Part shown: positions 11,174 to 63,715 of the stretch, piece after piece
Layout of the letters: each line of letters starts with the position of its first letter
Numbering within the stretch: the first letter of the stretch is position 1
From: Calditrichia bacterium
GTDB lineage: Bacteria > Calditrichota > Calditrichia > RBG-13-44-9 > J075
Assembly: GCA_028284905.1 (NCBI GenBank)
Contig: JANQQU010000029.1
Location: 62,001 to 126,000, forward strand
Reading direction: 5' to 3'
Length of the DNA stretch: 64,000 nucleotides
Translations under genes and position numbers: made by a program
The notes under the pieces: generated by a model
Seen by the model: the letters and a program-made list of their open reading frames with translations, nothing else
Told to the model about the DNA's origin: nothing
Databases searched by the model: none

Positions 11174-12415
11174 CTAGTTTCCACCTCTGCGGAATTCTTT
11201 CTTCAACACATTCCAGATTGGATTGTCGCCTCTTTTTTTGAAGGGCTCCGCATCAATGCCTTTCTCTACCGCCTTCCAGTATTTCCAGCCCAGTTTGGGC
11301 TCCGTTCCCAGCTCATAATCCAGGCCACCCCATTGCCCATCCGAGCGAAAGCTGTAAAAGACCCAATGCCAACCCTGCCGGTTGTAGATCGTAATCGCAT
11401 CGGCCAGATATTCTTTACATCCGGCAACCCGGCGATCACACCACAATTCGCTGGCAATAATTCGTTCCGCAGGTATTTGATATTTTTTCATAAATTCGCG
11501 AACCGGCTGAACACGTCTTTCCAAATTATTACTGCTCCATGGCACGCCTGGCCCATTCCAGTTTTCCGGCATCCGCCCCGGATATTCATAGCGACCTTTA
11601 TTTGCCCGGAATGCCGCAAATTGCCAGGGTGCGATATTGTGAAACGCATACAGGGTGAAGGGATCATCAACAGGTTCAAGATAGGGAAATCCCTGCGTAT
11701 CTGCATAAAAATAGCCGTCGAGCAGAATCGGGGTTGTTTTATCAGCCGCGCGTATAGCCGCAACCATCTGCCGGTTAAAGCGGTTCAAATCTGCCCGCGT
11801 ATTTTTACTTCGGGCAACCCATTCTGCAAAAGCACTGTCCGCCCTTTCAAATCCGAAGGCTTTTTCCGGGTGCGGTTCATTTAAGGGATTATAAGCGACA
11901 ATTGCCGGATGATCTTTCAGGGCAGCAGCAAGATCGTGCCAGAATTTAAAGGCCTGCGCCTGAAATGCCGCATTCTGCCAGATGCGATAATCATCGACGT
12001 CACCATTTAACTGGCGCCAGCGGCAACCGGGCAGGGAAAACATAGTGAGGACAATTTTAAGATTATTGCTCTCCGCTTCATCGAGAAATTTCTTCAAGAG
12101 TTGTAAATCTGTAGAATTCAGCGCCTGGAAATCATCGGCATCACCAATCAGGAAATCCCGTTCATCTGCCGGTAATACATCCGGATGAAAGCGGATATAT
12201 TCAATCCCGAAACCCGCCGCAGCTTTAAACCATTCCGGACGAAAAGTGAGCAGGCCGCCGTTCGCCCCCTTCCGCTGCGTTTTCCAGAATTCCATTTTTG
12301 CAGTATTAACATTCTGCGCAGCAAGGGAATAAAATATCGCATTGCCAGAGACGATCAACAGGATAAGATACAGCCAGAATTTTCGAGATATTTTTATTAA
12401 GCGAATCTGGCACAT
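11174..12415 (-). CDS. Exported glycoside hydrolase, family 5-like
   Basis: The 413-residue product has an N-terminal hydrophobic signal segment (about residues 12-33) and a TIM-barrel glycosidase region. The acid/base motif is NPLNEPHP, and a nucleophile Glu is probably the one in IIASELWCDR. RFHPDVLP and HWVFYSFRSD fit other strands of GH5-type barrels, the latter including the aromatic platform. It would cut beta-glycosidic links in polysaccharides outside the cytoplasm; substrate not predictable. It follows the enolase-superfamily gene by 63 bases on the same strand. AAGGG lies 11 bases before the start. Confidence 0.8.
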   Translation of the reverse strand: MCQIRLIKISRKFWLYLILLIVSGNAIFYSLAAQNVNTAKMEFWKTQRKGANGGLLTFRPEWFKAAAGFGIEYIRFHPDVLPADERDFLIGDADDFQALNSTDLQLLKKFLDEAESNNLKIVLTMFSLPGCRWRQLNGDVDDYRIWQNAAFQAQAFKFWHDLAAALKDHPAIVAYNPLNEPHPEKAFGFERADSAFAEWVARSKNTRADLNRFNRQMVAAIRAADKTTPILLDGYFYADTQGFPYLEPVDDPFTLYAFHNIAPWQFAAFRANKGRYEYPGRMPENWNGPGVPWSSNNLERRVQPVREFMKKYQIPAERIIASELWCDRRVAGCKEYLADAITIYNRQGWHWVFYSFRSDGQWGGLDYELGTEPKLGWKYWKAVEKGIDAEPFKKRGDNPIWNVLKKEFRRGGN

Positions 12416-12478
12416 GAAGGTTTTACCCTTATCTGATTTCGAATGAATATCGGCGGTGAAATGAGGATATCGGCCCTG

Positions 12479-13579
12479 CTAGCTTAATCGCACTTTTTCC
12501 AGAATTGTTTCATTCAATTCTACACCGAAACCCGGGCCGTCAGGCACCTTAACACAGCCATCGACAATTTTCACTTCATGGGTCAGTATATTTTCTTCCA
12601 GCAGAGAGAGCTCGGTAAATTCGCTCGCCAGCGGATGTATCTTCATCGATGCGGCCAGGTGCAACTTGGCGATCAGGGAAAATCCCGGTTCGATTTCCGT
12701 GCCGGCAATGCAGATCAGTCCGCAGGCTTCGGCAACAGCTTCAATTTTTTTCGCGAGAGCCAGTCCGCAGGATTTGGCAATTTTTATGTTGATGATGTCC
12801 GCGGCCCCTTTTCGGGCAATGTTGATCACATCCTGCGGCGTCCAGATGCTTTCATCCGCCATTAGCGGAATACCGATTTTGCTGCGGATATGCGCCATGC
12901 CGTCGAGGTCCCAGCTGGGCACCGGCTGTTCCAGCAACTGCAAATGGCAATCTTCAACGGCTTTCATCACCTTGATGGCGCCAATGGTCGTCCAGGCGGC
13001 GTTTGGGTCCAGCCGTAACTCCGCACGATCGCCAACTGCTTCCCGCACAGCTTTGATTCGGCGGATGTCCTGCTGCATATCGTCAGAACCTTTTATCTTG
13101 ATGACCTGGATGCCGAGGTCCAATATGCGCAGGGCATTATCTCCCATGGCCTGCGGCGTATCGATGCCAATTTCCGAAGCGACGGGAATGTTCTCCCGGA
13201 AACAGCCGCCAAGGAGATTATACACCGGAGTGTTATGAATACGCCCGACCAGGTCATGCAAAGCCAGATCGATGCCTTCTTTTACGCAGGTGACTTTAGC
13301 GAGGTTCGCATCAATGATCGCCATAATCTTGTGGATATTCAGCGGGTTTTCTCCGATCAATTTCGGCGCGATGTATTTCTCGATGGTCGAAGAGACGGAC
13401 TCGATCGTTTCCCCATAGAATTCCGGTTCCCAGGCACAAGCTTCCCCGATGCCGACAATTCCCGCATCGGTATGAATTTTCACCAGGACGGCATTGGAGG
13501 CAGAAAAACCGGTATAGGCATCGGCAAATTTTTTAATCGGGACGGAAAATGGTATCACTTCTATTTTGCTAATTTTCAT
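12479..13579 (-). CDS. Enolase-superfamily enzyme (dipeptide epimerase / muconate-lactonizing type)
   Basis: The protein has about 366 residues from the internal ATG MKISKIEVIPFSVPI, where the family N-terminus normally begins. The lysine pair is seen in VIKIKGSD, the metal ligands in RLDPNAAW, LLEQPV and MADESIW, and the second base in INIKIAK. This set fits the muconate-lactonizing subgroup (L-Ala-D/L-Glu epimerases, muconate cycloisomerase, N-succinylamino acid racemase). The TEIEPG motif near the C-terminus replaces the usual dipeptide-binding DxD, so dipeptide epimerase is not certain. It is followed by the GH5-like gene and may share its transcript. Confidence 0.8.
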   Translation of the reverse strand: MKISKIEVIPFSVPIKKFADAYTGFSASNAVLVKIHTDAGIVGIGEACAWEPEFYGETIESVSSTIEKYIAPKLIGENPLNIHKIMAIIDANLAKVTCVKEGIDLALHDLVGRIHNTPVYNLLGGCFRENIPVASEIGIDTPQAMGDNALRILDLGIQVIKIKGSDDMQQDIRRIKAVREAVGDRAELRLDPNAAWTTIGAIKVMKAVEDCHLQLLEQPVPSWDLDGMAHIRSKIGIPLMADESIWTPQDVINIARKGAADIINIKIAKSCGLALAKKIEAVAEACGLICIAGTEIEPGFSLIAKLHLAASMKIHPLASEFTELSLLEENILTHEVKIVDGCVKVPDGPGFGVELNETILEKVRLS

Positions 13580-13749
13580 AATATCCGGTATCCTGCGTTT
13601 AAGATAAATATTCATTTAGCTTCATAAAAATCGACTGCCCCAGCTTTTAATATTACTCTAAAATGATAACGCATGAAAGGCAGCCCAAGCAGACCTGCCG
13701 CAAGTTATACGCTATTTAGATTAATTAGAAGAATTACTGAAAATAAATT

Positions 13750-14658
13750 TTAATTTAGATTTCTATATTTTGTCGGAGACATTCCGGTTTTATTTTTAAA
13801 TAGTTTCCCAAACGATTGTGGATAATCAAAACCAAGATTATACGCTATTTCACTTACTGTTTCTTCCGTGCTGAGTAAAATAGTTTTTGCCTTTTCAATC
13901 ACAAAGAAATGGATATGATCCATGGCATTTCTACCGGTTTCTTTCTTTAACAAATCACTTAAATAATTGGGAGAATGGTTAAGCTGTTCCGCACAATATT
14001 TAACGGTTGGCACCCCCTGATTCTGCTGTAAATTCGAAGCATAATAATCTACCAGCAACCGCTCAAAATGAGTAACGATATCCTTATTCATATTGGAGCG
14101 GGTGTAGAATTGCCTATCGTAGAAACGCCTGCAATAATTCAATAAAAGTTCAATATTCGATATAATCAAACTTTGACTATGTTTATCAATATTTTGGGAA
14201 ATTTCTCTTTCAATCTTTTCGATAATATCGGTTAGAACTTTTATTTCGTCTTCAGAAAGATGCAGCGCCTCGTTTGACTCATAGGAGAAAAAATTATAGG
14301 TATCAATATTTCTGCCCAGGCCTGATTTACGTATTAAATCCGGATGAAAATAAAGCGACCAGCCGCCGGTTTCCTGGCTTATCACAGTTTCGGTCATGAT
14401 GATTACCTGCCCGGGTGCGGTAAGAATCATGGAGCCTTCCTGAAAATCATAGGAATTGCGTCCGTAGCCCAGTGAGCCGCTGATGCCATCTTTAAGGGAA
14501 ATCTGATACAAATCAAGTGCGTAGCGACCTTTTTGATATTCGCGTCTGAAATTTTCATGATCATGGTAAATTACAGAAACAAGCGGATGTTTTGGTTTTC
14601 CCACTCCAAGGAACTCATTCGCTTCAGTTACAGTTTTTATTGTTATTATTTCACTCAT
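13750..14658 (-). CDS. AraC family transcriptional regulator
   Basis: The protein has 302 residues: an N-terminal cupin-like sensor part (about 1-180) and two helix-turn-helix motifs in the last 100. The first has HSPNYLSDLLKKETG, the second SEIAYNLGFDYPQSFGKLFK, followed by GMSPTKYR, the usual end. AAGGA is 7 bases before the ATG, and the gene overlaps the SRPBCC gene by 8 bases. It is the third gene of a unit with an alpha/beta hydrolase and the SRPBCC protein and probably controls them. Confidence 0.87.
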   Translation of the reverse strand: MSEIITIKTVTEANEFLGVGKPKHPLVSVIYHDHENFRREYQKGRYALDLYQISLKDGISGSLGYGRNSYDFQEGSMILTAPGQVIIMTETVISQETGGWSLYFHPDLIRKSGLGRNIDTYNFFSYESNEALHLSEDEIKVLTDIIEKIEREISQNIDKHSQSLIISNIELLLNYCRRFYDRQFYTRSNMNKDIVTHFERLLVDYYASNLQQNQGVPTVKYCAEQLNHSPNYLSDLLKKETGRNAMDHIHFFVIEKAKTILLSTEETVSEIAYNLGFDYPQSFGKLFKNKTGMSPTKYRNLN

Positions 14659-15166
14659 TCAAAATCCTTCTTGGAATACTCTCGACTCTTGCCTTTAGTG
14701 CTTCAGCTAATCTTTCATACGCCCTTTCAACCGGAGCGGGATTCCAGAACGGAACCATAATGCCGCGATAATTTTCATGTATAATAACACTTGTGCTGTC
14801 ATCAACTGATTTAAGAATATATTTGTGGTCAAAAGTTAGAACAAAGGGCATTCCACCTGTCTGATTCAGCAGCTTATTTTCAACCATTTGTTTCACCATC
14901 GCCGGGATTACGCTTTTATTCTCCTCATCCTGGTGAAACTCGTATTTTACTGTATTGCCTTCCTTTAATACTCCCTCTACAGGAATTAAAACAGGATTCC
15001 ATTCCTTTATTTTTTCAGCATCTGTTAAGATGGCCCAGACTTCGTGCGGCGCTGCTTTGATAGTAATTTGTGTATGAACGGACTTTGAGCCAGTTAAATA
15101 CAAAATAGCTAAAATAAGAATTAATAAATAAAGCGCCATCATCCATTTTGATGTTAATATTGCCAT
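14651..15166 (-). CDS. SRPBCC (START-like) domain protein with N-terminal membrane helix
   Basis: The product has 171 residues. A helix at about 8-25 (MALYLLILILAILYL) is followed by TQITIKAAPHEVWAILTDAE, the classic opening of the SRPBCC/polyketide-cyclase fold, and a C-terminal helix (AYERLAEALK). The fold holds hydrophobic ligands in a deep cavity; here it would be tethered to the membrane. Two AAGGAG-like sites precede the ATG. Gene order is hydrolase, SRPBCC, AraC regulator. Confidence 0.77.
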   Translation of the reverse strand: MAILTSKWMMALYLLILILAILYLTGSKSVHTQITIKAAPHEVWAILTDAEKIKEWNPVLIPVEGVLKEGNTVKYEFHQDEENKSVIPAMVKQMVENKLLNQTGGMPFVLTFDHKYILKSVDDSTSVIIHENYRGIMVPFWNPAPVERAYERLAEALKARVESIPRRILNE

Positions 15167-15208
15167 TCTCCTTATCTCCTTCAGCTTAAGATGATAAGCA
15201 TTTTTTTT

Positions 15209-56869: not shown

Positions 56870-57667
56870 ATGCAAAAAATTTTAGTCACATGTTTGATCA
56901 TTGGCGGACTGCTCTACTCGCTGAGTGCATTTGGTCAGGAAGCTGTTGGCAATATGGCCGATATTAAGAAGAAACGGGGCGGCATAGCTCCCGAGGTTAC
57001 CCGCCAGGCTGGTCCCACCGGCACTGCCAGTGCGATTGCGAAAGAAGCCGCGGTAAACGCCCAGGATATCTTACAACTGGGTGATAATACCCTCGCCTCT
57101 ATCACATTCAACGACGGCGGCTTTGTGAAAATGCGCGAAGGCACTAAAATGGAAGTGCTTGGCATCGACGAAATATTCCTGATCGACGGGCATCTGTTTA
57201 TCAATAATAAGTGGCAAAGAAAAGGCGGGCGAAAACTTACCATAAAAACCAAGAGTGTCTCCGCCGGTACCATCGGTACAAAATTTTACGTGTACTATTG
57301 CGAAGCGATTGATTCGTTAATGCTTGCCGTTTTTGAAGGCGCAGTTTTGCTGGAGAGTGCCGATCCTTCCAATCCCGTCGAAGGCGCCCCGCTGGAAGTT
57401 CTTGCCGGGCAGGCGGTTACGGTAACACAAAACAAGGTCAACAGAGAGCCAAAAGCGGGCTTTCTGCCAGTAAAGCGCAGCGCAAATGCCTGGCAAAAAA
57501 CGATTGGCCCGAAACCATTTCCGGTTTGGGGGATGTTTGTGCCTGCCGCTGCCGCTGCAGTTGGCATCGCCGCTGGTATCATCGCTATAACAGCTGATGA
57601 AAGTCCTGCCGATGTCAGCACCACCGCTACCGGAACGATTGTAGTGGGCATTCCCCCGGGTAATTAG
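56870..57667 (+). CDS. Exported FecR-domain protein
   Basis: The 265-residue protein has AAAGGAG before the ATG, a signal peptide (1-22, ending AFGQ) and a FecR domain at about 55-180: DNTLASITFNDGGFVKMREG and SAGTIGTKFYVYY, then LAVFEGAVLLESA and LEVLAGQAVTVTQ. A helix at about 225-247 (MFVPAAAAAVGIAAGIIAI) may attach it to the inner membrane, leaving the FecR part in the periplasm. No sigma factor gene is adjacent, so it is not a classical FecIR anti-sigma. The lipoprotein with CARDB-like domains follows 34 bases later. Confidence 0.86.
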   Translation: MQKILVTCLIIGGLLYSLSAFGQEAVGNMADIKKKRGGIAPEVTRQAGPTGTASAIAKEAAVNAQDILQLGDNTLASITFNDGGFVKMREGTKMEVLGIDEIFLIDGHLFINNKWQRKGGRKLTIKTKSVSAGTIGTKFYVYYCEAIDSLMLAVFEGAVLLESADPSNPVEGAPLEVLAGQAVTVTQNKVNREPKAGFLPVKRSANAWQKTIGPKPFPVWGMFVPAAAAAVGIAAGIIAITADESPADVSTTATGTIVVGIPPGN

Positions 57668-57701: not shown

Positions 57702-59345
57702 ATGTTTAGCAAAATAGAATTGAGATCTCACCCCTCAATCGTTCTTTGTTTACTACTGCTTTTCTTTTTACTGTTCCCAACCTGTTCAGAGAATGATCCT
57801 TCCGGGCTTGACGAAAATTTTAGCGTTCAGCTGGATCTGGTATTGCCAAAGCTGGAAAACGCCGCTGATCCCAATGCAACAATTGATGCCGTCACCGTAA
57901 CAGTTACTGCGGAGGGGGAGCCGTTTTTCGACGAATTTACGGAAACATTGGTTATTAGCGGTAGTACTGCAACAGGGTCGATTGAAGTATTAAAGGGCGA
58001 AGATAGAAAATTTAATGTTCTCCTGCTGACCAGCGGCGTGACAATTTTCTGCGGATCGCAGACGATTGATATTCTCGGTGAAACCTTTGATCTGGATTTT
58101 CAATTTTCACAAAAGTGTAAGGATGTCACAGCATCGATATTCAATAATAGCCCCTTTTCCAGCGCGGGTAATAGCATTGCCGTGGACTGGATCACCAGTA
58201 ACACCGGCGTGGAACCCATCCCCGAAGCCTTTGATGATGAAGTCTGGTTGAGTACCACGCCGGGCACTGCAAACAAGGATGTTCTCCTGGGCACTTTTCG
58301 CCACTCAAGCGGACTCGCAGTAAATACCGACGTGCCTGTTTCGCTTGATGTAACCATTCCAAATCCGCTGCCGGGCCCCGGCGGTATCTATTCGATTTTT
58401 GTAGAGAATGATGCCAATGGCGAAGTTGAAGAAAGTGATGAAACCAATAATTATTTTCTTAACGATATCACTTTACTCGGCACCGGAGACCTGCGGGCAA
58501 CTTTAACCTGGGATACAGGCATCCCGCTGACGGACTCTACAGATATAGATATTCACGTCATTGAACCGGATGGCAGCGAGATCTATTGGGGTAATGAGAA
58601 TGGAACGACAGCTAACCTGGATGTCGATAATACAGCCGGACTTGGACCGGAGAATATTTTTGTAGAGGCAGGAACCGCGGCAGCCGGCGTCTACGAAGTC
58701 TTTGTTGTCTACTTCGATGCTATCGCTCCTGCGCCGACGACGGAAGCGACGGTTAGTTTAACGCTGTTTGAAGGTACTGCACAAGAAGAAAATCAAACTT
58801 TTACCCGCACATTAACAGTCGCGGATGATGCTACCGGCTTTAATGTTGCCACGGTAACTTTCCCAGGCGGTGTAATTACCGAAACATTTGGCACTCGCAG
58901 CACGGACCCTCCCATAGATTTAAATATCACATCATCCTGGGATAACGCCGCCCTGAATTTAGACGTCTTTTTATTACACCCGATGGTGTTGGATACTATC
59001 GGCATTGGCGCAGATCCTGTAGTAATCGATACTGCCCTGGACGGTACCTATTTGGTCTTTGTGGGGGCTAACGATATAGGTGTTACAAATGCTGAATTCA
59101 ATATTACTGTTTTTGCGAATACGATGAGTGAAAACTCGCAGATAATTAACCGAACAATAAACTCTACCGGTTCTGATTACGTAGAACAGATTGCGACCGT
59201 TGAATACCCGGCCGGCACAATAACAGAAATTCCTGCACCAAATAGCGTCAGTAGCAATGGGTTTTCATCCGGCATCAAAGCAAAAGCGTTGATACGTCCA
59301 AAATCCAGTAAAAAATTAAGAAAAATGGCCAAAAAGCGACGGTAA
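57702..59345 (+). CDS. Surface lipoprotein with CARDB and DUF2135-like domains
   Basis: The protein has 547 residues and GAGGAG 7 bases before the ATG. A signal ends in the lipobox FPTC (Cys28). A first beta-rich part (30-135) is followed by a CARDB-like Ig domain (about 140-255; SIFVENDANGEVEESDETNNY). A DUF2135-like block follows at about 260-350 (TDIDIHVIEPDGSEIYWGNE, LGPENIF, YEVFVVY). A second such block extends to about 500. The last 20 residues are basic, ending KKLRKMAKKRR. It probably binds proteins or glycans at the surface. Its end overlaps the opposing CHAT gene by 30 bases. Confidence 0.82.
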   Translation: MFSKIELRSHPSIVLCLLLLFFLLFPTCSENDPSGLDENFSVQLDLVLPKLENAADPNATIDAVTVTVTAEGEPFFDEFTETLVISGSTATGSIEVLKGEDRKFNVLLLTSGVTIFCGSQTIDILGETFDLDFQFSQKCKDVTASIFNNSPFSSAGNSIAVDWITSNTGVEPIPEAFDDEVWLSTTPGTANKDVLLGTFRHSSGLAVNTDVPVSLDVTIPNPLPGPGGIYSIFVENDANGEVEESDETNNYFLNDITLLGTGDLRATLTWDTGIPLTDSTDIDIHVIEPDGSEIYWGNENGTTANLDVDNTAGLGPENIFVEAGTAAAGVYEVFVVYFDAIAPAPTTEATVSLTLFEGTAQEENQTFTRTLTVADDATGFNVATVTFPGGVITETFGTRSTDPPIDLNITSSWDNAALNLDVFLLHPMVLDTIGIGADPVVIDTALDGTYLVFVGANDIGVTNAEFNITVFANTMSENSQIINRTINSTGSDYVEQIATVEYPAGTITEIPAPNSVSSNGFSSGIKAKALIRPKSSKKLRKMAKKRR

Positions 59346-62300
59346 AAACTTTGCTTTAACCACTAAGGTAAGCACCTGGATAGACCAAATGATTGCGGCG
59401 ATGGCGACGGCAATTGGCAGCAGCACATAAAAAATGTTATAGATGAATATTGCCAAACCGACAAAAGCGCCGCTTTCAATTAAGGTTAGCAAAGTAGGAT
59501 CAATCCGCCGCTCCCGGAACTTCACGAAGTAAAATACATTCAGTGCGATGATCAACAAGGCAATAATGATCTGCCAGTGAAGGCCACCGAGCGGCGCCTG
59601 CAGCAGATTGTTCACTGCATTGGCCTGTACATCCAGCCCGTAACGCCCCTCCTCCATATTCTGCGGAATATAATAATTTGGCGCCAACTTAAAGCCGACA
59701 ATGGCAATTTTACCTTCCCAGAAACCAGCAGGCGCTGCATCCTGCAGCACTTCGTAATAAGAGTAATTTTGCAAATTATCATCTTCCCCGAGGAAGCTGA
59801 TATAAAGGGTATTACCGTTCTCGAGTAAGCGGCCAAGTTGGGTAGAATCGGTTGCTTCCGGATAGAGCACCTTCACTGCGAATGGCGAGAGGTCATCATC
59901 TTCATCGTAGAGACGGATGGCCAGATCGTCGCCGGTATCCAGGAACTTCACTGAGCCGTAGCTTTCGCCTACCGCCTCCAGGGAATAAGTTGGTTCGTAA
60001 TCATCATCGCAATCGACCCCGAATACGATTTGGGTACCGCGCTCTTTTGCCCGGGCAATTGCCAGATTAAAGAGTGAATCATGTTGCGAGGAGTCGATAA
60101 AGCAGATGTTAAAGGCAATTACGCTCGCCCCGTTCTCGGAAAGCATATCGACTAACGTGGCATGGTGTTTTCGAAAAGCGAGAAAGTTTTCTCCTCGCAA
60201 AGGCGCCAACTGCAAAGAGTTAGCAGTCGTGTCATCAATAGCCACTGTCACCAGATCGGAATGGGGCTGCAGCATAAAATCTTTCACAATGGTGTCCAGC
60301 TTGGCAAAGAGGTCCATCCGGAAAAGGAGATAAATAACAAAAGTGATCAATACGATCCCGGCGGCCATCAGTCGTTGCATCTGGCGCATGCGCTGCTGCT
60401 GTGCCTTTTTACTGGCGGCCAGCATCCGCTTTTCATCGCCGTCCAGATCCCGGCGGCCGGCAGCGCCCGCTTCTAAAATATTAATATCCTGTTCGTCCAG
60501 CAGTTCCCCGGTTTTCCCCTCCTGCCAGCCGCTGCTGCGATTGGCCAGCACCCGCATCGCCTTCTGCCCCGGGCGGTCGGAAATGTTAAACTCCCGGATT
60601 ATCACCGGGGCCAGAATATCGTGCGCAAGGATGGTATTGTTCTTATCGATACGCAGCAGCAGGTTATGTTCAATACATTTATCGATAAGTTCGTCGATGG
60701 TTTTCAGGCGTTTGCCATAATAGGTTGTCAGCGTTTCCCGGCTGCAGCGCCCGGCGGTACCGAGGTCGGTGGTGTGATGCTTGAGCAGATCCAAGGCCAG
60801 TCCGGCATTTACAGCGGCCGGCATTTCTGCCTCCACCCGGGCCATTTGCTGCTCAAAGAATTCCCCCATGGAGATGCCGGCTTTCTTCAGCTCCTGATAC
60901 TGTTCCGGCGTAAAGCGAGGCGCTTCTTCGTCTTTCTCCCGAGCACTTTCCCAGAGCTTTTTCAGGATAATTTGCAACACTGGCGCAATCGGTGATTCCC
61001 GGTCAGCCAATAGGTCGTCGGCGAGGGTTTCCGGCAAGCTTCCGCTCTGGCTGGAGGCAATCTCCAGACGATATTTTGCCTGAACATCAGCATCGGCAGT
61101 GACCCCGGTAATCGCTTCGACAACCCCTTCCCGGTCGAGCCGTTTCAGGAAAACTTCCGCATAAGGGAATTTCAGGGCCTGGAAAGTATCGCGGATCTCC
61201 GGGTGATATTCCTTACGATAGCTAAGGATCAGCTTCCCCTGAATCGCTTTCTCATCACCGCTAAACAAGGGGTGAATGGCATGGAGGAAGCTAATCAATT
61301 CATCCACACCGTCGTCCCCCTCCATCGGGCGGGTGTAATGTTCTTCTAACTGGTCGAGAATGACAACCAGCGGCTTTCCTTCCCGGGCTTCAATCGATTG
61401 CCAGGTGTCGAGAATGTTCGTCAACTCCGCCCCCGGTATCGCGGGATTTTCTAAACGGCGGATGATGCCGGCAATGTCTGCGGCAATCGCTTTCTCCGGC
61501 AGTGCAGCTTTCAGCTGGTCCAGCAGGTCAATGATTTTCTGTTGACTTTCCGGATCTTCTTTCTCCACATCCGGGGCGGAGAGATCGGTGCCTAATCCTT
61601 TGGCGAGCGTACCACGCAGCCCTAGGGACTGATCCCGCCGCAGGTAGAGAATAGTGAATTTATCCTTGATCCGCGGCAGCAATCCGGCATAAAGCAAGGA
61701 AGATTTCCCCACGCCGGACTTGCCGTAGAAGAGGATGATCGGATGGACGCCGTCGATATGACTGCGCAGCGCACGAATTTGCGCACCGCGACCGAAGAAG
61801 AGCGCAGCATCATCTTCTTTAAAATAGTTCAACCCAAGGAATGGCGCTGGGGGCAGATTGGCATAATATCTTTCCGGCAATGGTAAACCAAAGAGCGGAT
61901 TGCGGGAAGCGCGCGGTAAATTCCATTCGGTCACCGCTTCGGAACCGGGGCGGACATAGAGCTCCCAGGGAAACTCTACCCGTGGTTTATCTTTCGATTT
62001 ATGGCCTGGCCAAACTGCCCGATAGCCTTCGGAGGCGTCTGTGCGCGTCTTTACTTTCGCGGCGGCGGCTTCCCAGGATTGGGCGATCGTGCGCCCGGTG
62101 GCAAGACTTTCATAAAATTGGGTGGAAAGAATAGTGGCAGCGGCATCGTCGATCGGCTGGGAAGTACCTACGACGACCGGTATGCCGAGGCTGCGTAATT
62201 TCTCCGCCTGCTGCTTGGAAGAGCAGCCATTGATAAACACCAGCTGTAATCCCTTTTGTGCAGCGAGAAAATTCATCAGGCCGTCACTGTTGGCATATTG

Positions 62301-62576
62301 GCGGCTGCCATCTGCCGCTTTTAAGAGCAAGGTATAATCTTCGGCATGACCACCATAGTGGAAAATTGCGATACGGTCCTGGTATTTATCGAAAACACGG
62401 AAAATTTTATCGACATCGGTATCGGTCTCGTAAACGACTTCACAGAGGCCTTTTTCTTCCGCCTTATCCAAAGCAGCGCGAATACCGTCTTGTTCTTCAG
62501 TAAGTTTATAGAGGTAGGATTGATGATCGTTGGCAAAGGCCAGGAAGATGACCGGTTTTCCATTCTGCATATTCAT
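59316..62576 (-). CDS. CHAT protease-STAND ATPase-CHASE2 sensor fusion protein
   Basis: One protein of 1086 residues holds a complete signalling chain. Residues 1-200 are a CHAT caspase-like protease with catalytic His77 in FHYGGHAED and Cys118 in FINGCSS. Residues about 245-660 are a STAND ATPase of the nSTAND1 type: PFLGLNYFKEDDAALFFGR, Walker A GKSGVGKSS (Lys291), Walker B VVILDQLEEHY (Asp408), and a winged-helix part to about 660. Helix 736-753 leads to a CHASE2 domain (757-993) outside the membrane, and three C-terminal helices follow. Topology puts protease and ATPase inside, sensor outside. No DNA-binding or kinase output follows CHASE2. AAAGGA lies 11 bases before the ATG. Confidence 0.9.
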   Translation of the reverse strand: MNMQNGKPVIFLAFANDHQSYLYKLTEEQDGIRAALDKAEEKGLCEVVYETDTDVDKIFRVFDKYQDRIAIFHYGGHAEDYTLLLKAADGSRQYANSDGLMNFLAAQKGLQLVFINGCSSKQQAEKLRSLGIPVVVGTSQPIDDAAATILSTQFYESLATGRTIAQSWEAAAAKVKTRTDASEGYRAVWPGHKSKDKPRVEFPWELYVRPGSEAVTEWNLPRASRNPLFGLPLPERYYANLPPAPFLGLNYFKEDDAALFFGRGAQIRALRSHIDGVHPIILFYGKSGVGKSSLLYAGLLPRIKDKFTILYLRRDQSLGLRGTLAKGLGTDLSAPDVEKEDPESQQKIIDLLDQLKAALPEKAIAADIAGIIRRLENPAIPGAELTNILDTWQSIEAREGKPLVVILDQLEEHYTRPMEGDDGVDELISFLHAIHPLFSGDEKAIQGKLILSYRKEYHPEIRDTFQALKFPYAEVFLKRLDREGVVEAITGVTADADVQAKYRLEIASSQSGSLPETLADDLLADRESPIAPVLQIILKKLWESAREKDEEAPRFTPEQYQELKKAGISMGEFFEQQMARVEAEMPAAVNAGLALDLLKHHTTDLGTAGRCSRETLTTYYGKRLKTIDELIDKCIEHNLLLRIDKNNTILAHDILAPVIIREFNISDRPGQKAMRVLANRSSGWQEGKTGELLDEQDINILEAGAAGRRDLDGDEKRMLAASKKAQQQRMRQMQRLMAAGIVLITFVIYLLFRMDLFAKLDTIVKDFMLQPHSDLVTVAIDDTTANSLQLAPLRGENFLAFRKHHATLVDMLSENGASVIAFNICFIDSSQHDSLFNLAIARAKERGTQIVFGVDCDDDYEPTYSLEAVGESYGSVKFLDTGDDLAIRLYDEDDDLSPFAVKVLYPEATDSTQLGRLLENGNTLYISFLGEDDNLQNYSYYEVLQDAAPAGFWEGKIAIVGFKLAPNYYIPQNMEEGRYGLDVQANAVNNLLQAPLGGLHWQIIIALLIIALNVFYFVKFRERRIDPTLLTLIESGAFVGLAIFIYNIFYVLLPIAVAIAAIIWSIQVLTLVVKAKFLPSLFGHFS

Positions 62577-62749: not shown

Positions 62750-63715
62750 TCAAGTTTGATGGTTGGAGACGAATTGCCCGGCCTGGATTGATGCCGTCTT
62801 TTTCACCTCACCATCAACTGATAACTTTGAAAATACTATTGGGAGGCCCATAGCGCTGAAAAAATTCTCTGTATCCTGGAGATGAAAATGGAGATGTGGC
62901 TCCGAGCTATGACCACTATGGCCGCATTTGCCAATAACCTCACCGCTTTTTACCAAGTCCCCTACGGCAACCGGAATACTCCCTTTGATGAGGTGCGCAT
63001 ACAATCCATATTCATTAGGCGCATGTTCGATAATGACGTGGTTGCCGACGAAATTTGTCCCGGTAAAATCGACGATGCCATATCCAAGGAAAGGCGCATC
63101 TTTTATACCACTAACAACTTTCACGACTTTACCATCAGCCGCTGCGCAGATATTTTTACCATAACAAGCGTAATCCTGCAGCGCTGTTCCCCGGGAGGTA
63201 TGCCTTACTTTGTTGCTATCCGCAATAACAAAATCGTAGGCATATCGTTGGGTAATTACTTCCCAGGAATGCGAATTTGCCTGCTCTCTACCGCCATTAT
63301 AAACAAACCATTCATCTTCAAATGGCAAGCTGTAATCTACCTTGTTTTGATAATTGATATATTTATCAGGATCATCTTTTAAGCGCGCCTTCAAAACAAA
63401 GTTACCCATTCCCTGGCGAATAATTTGAAGCAGCAGAAACGGATTTAACAAACACAAAAATCCGCTGACGGTAAAGGTGAAGATCAAACCTTTTTGGCCG
63501 TATTTGCCGATTGGTCCGGAAGTCGGCCATTCCACTGCTTCCGCCGACTCGTCTTCATGGTCTGATGATCCGGCCAAAGCGGATACCAGGAAGTAAATCA
63601 ACAAATATAGTACGATTGACCACACCAGGGATAATCGGTAATTCCAGATATAATCCAGCCCCAGAAAAATGATCAGGAAAATAGTAATCGGAATGAAGGT
63701 TTTCGCTGCTGGCAT
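62750..63715 (-). CDS. Membrane-anchored M23-family metallopeptidase
   Basis: The 321-residue protein has three helices (about 8-24, 28-47 and 75-100), then an M23 peptidase at about 145-285: NSHS with His149 and DFVI with Asp161 as probable zinc ligands, YGLYAHL with His241 and HLHFHLQD with His274 and His276. The classical HxxxD is lost (RYAYD), and the first ligand is taken to be His149 from spacing. It should cut peptidoglycan cross-links in the periplasm. GGGGAG is 10 bases before the ATG. It lies 173 bases upstream of the CHAT-STAND-CHASE2 gene on the same strand. Confidence 0.84.
   Translation of the reverse strand: MPAAKTFIPITIFLIIFLGLDYIWNYRLSLVWSIVLYLLIYFLVSALAGSSDHEDESAEAVEWPTSGPIGKYGQKGLIFTFTVSGFLCLLNPFLLLQIIRQGMGNFVLKARLKDDPDKYINYQNKVDYSLPFEDEWFVYNGGREQANSHSWEVITQRYAYDFVIADSNKVRHTSRGTALQDYACYGKNICAAADGKVVKVVSGIKDAPFLGYGIVDFTGTNFVGNHVIIEHAPNEYGLYAHLIKGSIPVAVGDLVKSGEVIGKCGHSGHSSEPHLHFHLQDTENFFSAMGLPIVFSKLSVDGEVKKTASIQAGQFVSNHQT

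Follow-up and report, generated by a model that had tools for sequence, protein, structure and literature searches.

A CHAT-nSTAND1 gene of a Calditrichia bacterium with CHASE2 in an interchangeable C-terminal slot: a candidate transmembrane NLR-like receptor protease

Introduction

Bacterial NLR-like proteins are mostly regarded as cytosolic sensors. In CHASE2 receptors the output domain, a cyclase or kinase, usually lies C-terminal to the fourth transmembrane (TM) helix, and their ligands are largely unknown. One gene within a 64,000-nucleotide stretch of a Calditrichia bacterium contig (the window) appears to combine both worlds, since its predicted product carries a caspase-like CHAT protease, a STAND ATPase and a CHASE2 domain in a single chain. 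An earlier note on this DNA had read the protein as a sensor in the envelope by which a protease in the cytoplasm is switched on, and as a candidate for an undescribed system. Here we ask how the three parts came to be joined, whether the combination is new and what such a protein might do.

Results

Domain organization and predicted topology

The open reading frame 62576-59316 on the minus strand is intact, encodes 1086 amino acids and has a ribosome-binding-like GAAAGGA a short distance 5' of its ATG. No promoter or terminator signals above chance were found around the gene. The following features were assigned (positions in the window):

59316..62576, minus strand: whole gene, CHAT - nSTAND1 - helical region - TM - CHASE2 - three TM, 1086 amino acids
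61947..62576, minus strand: CHAT caspase-like protease domain, residues ~1-210 (PF12770 and 8tl0 match)
62346..62348, minus strand: predicted catalytic His77 (FHYGGHA), present in 11/11 aligned family members and aligned with 8tl0
62223..62225, minus strand: predicted catalytic Cys118 (FINGCSS), present in 11/11 aligned family members and aligned with 8tl0
60519..61844, minus strand: nSTAND1 ATPase and downstream helical region, residues 245-686 (PF20703, E=2.5e-31)
61701..61724, minus strand: Walker A, GKSGVGKS, residues 285-292
61350..61367, minus strand: Walker B, VVILDQ, residues 404-409
60297..60380, minus strand: predicted TM helix 1, residues 733-760, preceded by a basic patch (hydropathy peak 2.27)
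59556..60344, minus strand: CHASE2, predicted extracytoplasmic sensor domain, residues 745-1007 (PF05226, E=8.5e-18)
59511..59606, minus strand: predicted TM helix 2, residues 991-1022, followed by the basic loop KFRERR (hydropathy)
59343..59498, minus strand: predicted TM helices 3 and 4, residues 1027-1078, with no output domain after them (hydropathy)

In a single Pfam scan, residues 108-175 matched CHAT at E=1.2e-4 and 22 bits, against a curated cut-off of 24. In the whole-genome search the CHAT domain of this gene reached 25.7 bits, above the cut-off of PF12770, which most of its paralogues also exceed, several of them clearly. Residues 5-182 align to the CHAT part of the structure 8tl0, a SAVED-CHAT protease (PMC11417357), with H77 and C118 lying on its GH and NxC motifs. 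Because of this alignment and the scores of the paralogues, residues 5-182 of the predicted protease can be firmly assigned to CHAT. Every homologue aligned across these positions keeps H77 and C118 as well as both Walker motifs, so that the proposal of a caspase-like protease with an intact His/Cys pair, linked to a STAND ATPase with intact Walker motifs, was borne out. PADLOC returned a weak match to mad8 alone, confined to the ATPase (E=1.2e-4). An AlphaFold model of the whole protein, computed from a two-sequence alignment, had a pLDDT of 39.6 and was left uninterpreted.

The profile search did not assign residues 757-993 to another fold, the Pfam CHASE2 match extending from 745 to 1007. 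The hydrophobic stretch 1027-1078 comprises 52 residues, sufficient for two helices, and is read as such, giving one predicted TM helix before CHASE2 and three after it. Basic residues stand before TM1 (KKAQQQRMRQMQR) and after TM2 (KFRERR). Judged by hydropathy and the positive-inside rule, these residues fit with a CHASE2 domain outside the membrane, in agreement with the topology suggested earlier. The protein ends eight residues past the last hydrophobic stretch; its output domain is N-terminal instead.

CHASE2 occupies a variable C-terminal slot

Searching all 8.55 Mb of the genome revealed seven paralogues that share the CHAT-nSTAND1 module (residues 1 to ~750), including the dyad and the Walker A and B motifs, at up to 76% identity. 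In place of CHASE2 they carry HEAT (contig C2), WD40 (C2, C66), Lcl_C (C92 twice, C21) or a histidine-kinase-like ATPase, HATPase_c (C79). A WD40-like version of the gene is present in the KSB1 MAG QEVD01000008.1. Near relatives of this chassis were found in one other genome among 98 searched, plus one KSB1 MAG.

The HEAT paralogue is the closest relative (76% identical). In the chassis tree the two genes are sisters (support 100/100) and a WD40 gene comes next, hence C-termini have changed between near relatives. At the DNA level, similarity to the HEAT gene amounts to 73% over nt 1-2218 and ends at the start of TM1 (blastn). The C-terminal tails of the two genes showed no significant similarity in the tail comparison. 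The breakpoint maps as follows:

60359, minus strand: breakpoint at nt 2218 of the gene (codon ~739), where the HEAT paralogue ceases to match in DNA (blastn and tail comparison)

CHAT is the best conserved part relative to the HEAT gene (86% amino acid identity, dN 0.086, dS ~2.6, the latter saturated), its dN being lower than that of the STAND part. The chassis is thus under purifying selection, and CHAT is conserved to the degree that a functional catalytic domain, which it is predicted to be, would lead one to expect.

At the junction between module and C-terminal part, a basic patch (four to six Lys/Arg on the N-terminal side) followed by one TM helix is found in six of the family's eight members in this genome, the CHASE2 gene included. 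The junction helix is absent from the HATPase member on C79 and from one Lcl_C member (C92b), and in the KSB1 gene the hydrophobic stretch lies slightly below threshold. Under the positive-inside rule and from hydropathy, this pattern suggests that the module is usually membrane-anchored, with the C-terminal domain, probably the sensor, outside. Since the cytoplasm is the usual place of WD40 and HEAT domains, a junction helix is no proof of outside sensing in all paralogues. In the copy studied here, the first TM helix of CHASE2 seems to replace the module's own. CHASE2 is placed, on comparison of the sister genes, in the interchangeable sensor slot of a predicted NLR-like protein, the swap having occurred at the membrane border. 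No orthologue with CHASE2 was found; this copy is a single case.

Some members of the family have neighbours of their own. On C79, the CHAT-nSTAND1 gene fused to the histidine-kinase-type ATPase and a convergent neighbour (L073:8669-11470 and 11878-15183) end in a near-identical motif (IYLPSYLK). The WD40-type loci of this genome (L068:573-11866) and of KSB1 (L009:4589-18181) have in common an exported neighbour marked by the motif NRFEGIKTKKWKPV; both also have caspase-type neighbours, and a trypsin-like protease is encoded at the KSB1 locus as well. In total the genome has 19 CHAT matches, of which eight are strong full-length CHAT domains outside the CHAT-nSTAND1 family.

Pairing of proteases with CHASE2 is already known

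A Trichodesmium metacaspase with a C-terminal CHASE2 domain, one plus three TM helices and the same inferred topology was described in 2010 and 2012 (PMC2853523, PMC3501461). A cell-death model was built on the Trichodesmium caspase-CHASE2 protein in a 2020 review (PMC7475262), and Kaur et al. (2021) list CHASE2 as one of the parts that can stand at the variable C-terminus of EACC2-caspase proteins (PMC8195603). Consequently, to call the present gene an undescribed system was too strong.

We retrieved nine further cyanobacterial proteins. Eight have CHAT and CHASE2 by Pfam, all nine retain the GH and SC/CC dyad motifs, and DUF1822 was present upstream in both of the two cases scanned. Like the Trichodesmium erythraeum caspase-CHASE2 protein (IMG 638105709), the cyanobacterial EACC2 proteins resemble the gene studied here in their N-terminal caspase-like protease, predicted to be cytoplasmic, their C-terminal CHASE2 and the one-plus-three helices. 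However, no nSTAND1 was detected by Pfam in the eight cyanobacterial CHAT-CHASE2 proteins scanned, which thus lack the STAND ATPase of the present gene. They also start with a different domain, which places ~100 residues or more ahead of CHAT, whereas here CHAT similarity begins at residue 5. Across the genomes listed for both domains, among them those of a cyanobacterial search with a profile that covered the chassis only (705 positions, too short for the CHASE2 columns), no nSTAND1 frame among the matches listed was equal in length to a CHASE2 frame of the same genome. A single chain of nSTAND1 and CHASE2 is likely rare, and nSTAND1 between a caspase-like protease and CHASE2 was found nowhere else in the sequences searched.

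Source of the CHASE2 domain

The best match of the CHASE2 domain is the CHASE2 of an adenylate cyclase of the same genome, on contig C93 (25.6% identity over 367 amino acids, E=2e-12). A cyclase-type CHASE2 profile matched the domain at E=2e-17; some rows of this profile were short or misread, and corrected rows were used for the domain tree. No match was obtained with a profile of CHASE2 from the cyanobacterial, EACC2-type CHAT-CHASE2 proteins. In the domain tree the CHASE2 of the present gene is very divergent (~3 changes per site) and falls on other branches than those of the cyanobacterial proteins, outside both supported EACC2-type clades, its long branch leaving the exact place unsure. 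The match to the cyclase type rather than the EACC2 type suggests a separate origin, with CHASE2 having joined caspase-like proteases more than once, as far as so divergent a domain can be placed. The cyanobacterial CHAT-CHASE2 proteins (L124-L133) themselves have CHASE2 in two separate supported clades, one of them nested among other CHASE2 proteins, on long branches, suggesting that the domain joined a protease more than once in cyanobacteria too.

The CHASE2 adenylate/guanylate cyclases, for example those of Sinorhizobium (CyaD1, CyaD2 and CyaK, PMC13001267) and the one on C93, have a CHASE2 of the same type as found here, but their cyclase output follows the last TM helix, whereas here the protease stands before TM1. 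At the C93 locus (L062:5842-10840), the CHASE2 adenylate cyclase gene is separated by one base from the end of a TPR-CHAT gene whose product has a lipoprotein-like signal. After the cyclase come genes for a TPR protein with weak FecR similarity and for a CsgG/SH3 protein. The TPR-CHAT product is possibly a CHAT protein of the periplasm, encoded next to a CHASE2 receptor.

Genomic neighbourhood

According to the Pfam scan, the gene is surrounded by envelope and metabolic genes, not by defence genes, and neither a defence island nor a conserved partner was found around it. The M23 peptidase gene 62750-63715 is on the same strand but lies 173 bp upstream and does not recur next to the sister genes; it is not counted as a component. 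Two genes lie on the other side:

56870..57667, plus strand: exported FecR-domain protein (PF04773, E=3.7e-7), on the strand opposite to the CHAT-nSTAND1-CHASE2 gene
57702..59345, plus strand: secreted CARDB/DUF2135-like protein (both Pfam scores below cut-off)

The latter, read from the other strand, extends with its 3' end 30 bp into the CHAT-nSTAND1-CHASE2 gene. FecR genes number only seven in the 8.55-Mb genome. Among the matches listed for the host's class, FecR and CHASE2 genes stand side by side on the same strand in 26 pairs from 26 genomes. These genomes (for example L134, L135, L136, L137, L063:3819-10385) hold a conserved one-strand cassette encoding, in order, an exported protein of ~380 amino acids, FecR, an exported protein of ~800 amino acids ending in Phe, possibly an outer-membrane barrel, and finally a CHASE2 protein of ~715 amino acids. 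The arrangement recalls the outer-membrane input, NsrA, to the CHASE2 cyclases of Sinorhizobium. By blastp, the FecR protein of the window showed no similarity to the cassette FecR proteins, nor the CARDB-like protein to the ~800-residue proteins. On these grounds, and since both neighbours are encoded opposite to the CHASE2 gene, FecR and the CARDB-like protein are a weak lead as its possible ligand partners.

Discussion

The anatomy of the protein is best read as that of a transmembrane NLR-like receptor protease, in which an envelope signal acts through nSTAND1 on CHAT; we put the probability of this reading at roughly 60%. The domains, the conserved catalytic and Walker motifs, the purifying selection on the chassis and the sensor swap with its breakpoint are its observed basis. 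To this extent the earlier interpretation, an envelope sensor governing a cytoplasmic protease, stands, and the sister genes add that CHASE2 sits in the sensor slot; the description as an undescribed system does not. The chassis would consist of CHAT, nSTAND1, a helical region, a basic patch and one TM helix, with eight copies in the genome, six of them with the helix. The variable C-terminal parts would sit where NLR-like proteins carry their sensor, CHASE2 having been gained through an exchange at the membrane border. From this anatomy we infer a possible course of events. An envelope signal would alter CHASE2, perhaps via a partner protein of the envelope or outer membrane, as the Sinorhizobium CHASE2 cyclases receive their signal through the outer-membrane protein NsrA (PMC13001267). 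The change would pass via TM1 to nSTAND1, which in its ATP-bound form would oligomerize at the membrane. The CHAT domains thus clustered would be activated by proximity, SAVED-CHAT serving as template for an oligomeric protease (PMC11417357), and would cut a cytoplasmic target, most likely in an alarm or regulated-death response.

Antiviral STAND (Avs) and bacterial NLR-like proteins have the same order of effector, STAND and variable C-terminal sensor (PMC10907252). However, the ligands of the characterized members are phage proteins produced inside the cell, whereas here the sensor is predicted to be outside and the effector to be a CHAT protease. SAVED-CHAT 8tl0 is the closest solved CHAT domain and was seen as an oligomer, but its SAVED domain senses cyclic oligoadenylate in the cytoplasm, and it lacks STAND, TM helices and CHASE2 (PMC11417357). 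Against the receptor reading stand the low confidence of the structure model, the single CHASE2 case, the quiet neighbourhood with neither a defence island nor a conserved partner, and the order of the parts, since CHASE2 output normally comes after TM4, and here before TM1.

Alternatively, CHASE2 and the four TM helices might be mainly an anchoring or dimerization device. The trigger would then be cytoplasmic, as it is for cytosolic NLR-like proteins, and would be sensed by nSTAND1 or by the helical region that follows it. The ligand site of so divergent a CHASE2 may be lost, and the paralogues C92b and C79, having no junction helix, are presumably cytoplasmic. We nevertheless give this alternative little credence, since the domain matches the profile across nearly its full length and keeps the core motifs VAIDD, GASVIAFNICF, GKIAIVG and GLDVQANAVNNLL at their counterparts in the cyclase of the same genome. 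An outside domain of ~230 residues is superfluous for a mere anchor, and in all sister genes the same position is where the variable part sits. Still less can be said for the gene being a plain member of the published EACC2 protease-CHASE2 systems. The pairing of CHAT with a C-terminal CHASE2, and the topology, are as in the cyanobacterial proteins (PMC8195603), but the EACC2 domain before the protease is missing, DUF1822, TRADD-N and an ECF sigma partner are all absent among the neighbours scanned by Pfam, nSTAND1 is present and CHASE2 is of the cyclase type. We rejected this membership as very improbable.

The purpose of the receptor, granted that it is one, is a separate matter. CHASE2 proteins are generally environmental sensors (PMC5192318, PMC13001267), the neighbouring genes speak of envelope and metabolism, and the CRISPR-associated protease CalpL cuts the anti-sigma factor CalpT (PMC11417357). 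The present protease might likewise serve ordinary envelope-stress or developmental signalling: on an envelope signal it would make limited cuts in a regulator, for example an anti-sigma factor, and have no part in death or defence. We consider this rather unlikely, as an expanded, patchy paralogue family with swapped C-termini is more typical of conflict systems, and close relatives of the chassis occur so sparsely in the genomes searched. Between immunity, regulated death and signalling, the patchy distribution and the turnover of C-termini would thus favour conflict, whereas the quiet neighbourhood does not.

The receptor protease may belong to a wider class of transmembrane NLR-like receptors, membrane-anchored CHAT-nSTAND1 proteins whose outside sensor (CHASE2, Lcl_C, WD40 or HEAT) is exchanged as a cassette; we advance this class tentatively, as a plausible idea that falls somewhat short of an even chance. 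With the pairing of protease and CHASE2 already known, the reasons to follow up this locus are the evidence for a swap slot and the possible family of membrane-borne NLR-like proteins. If the junction helix is real, an NLR switch would be borne on the membrane with its sensor outside, and CHASE2 would be coupled to a protease, with cleavage as a directly measurable readout. If the class proves true, bacteria would possess NLR-like alarm proteins directed at the periplasm or the cell surface, not at the cytosol.
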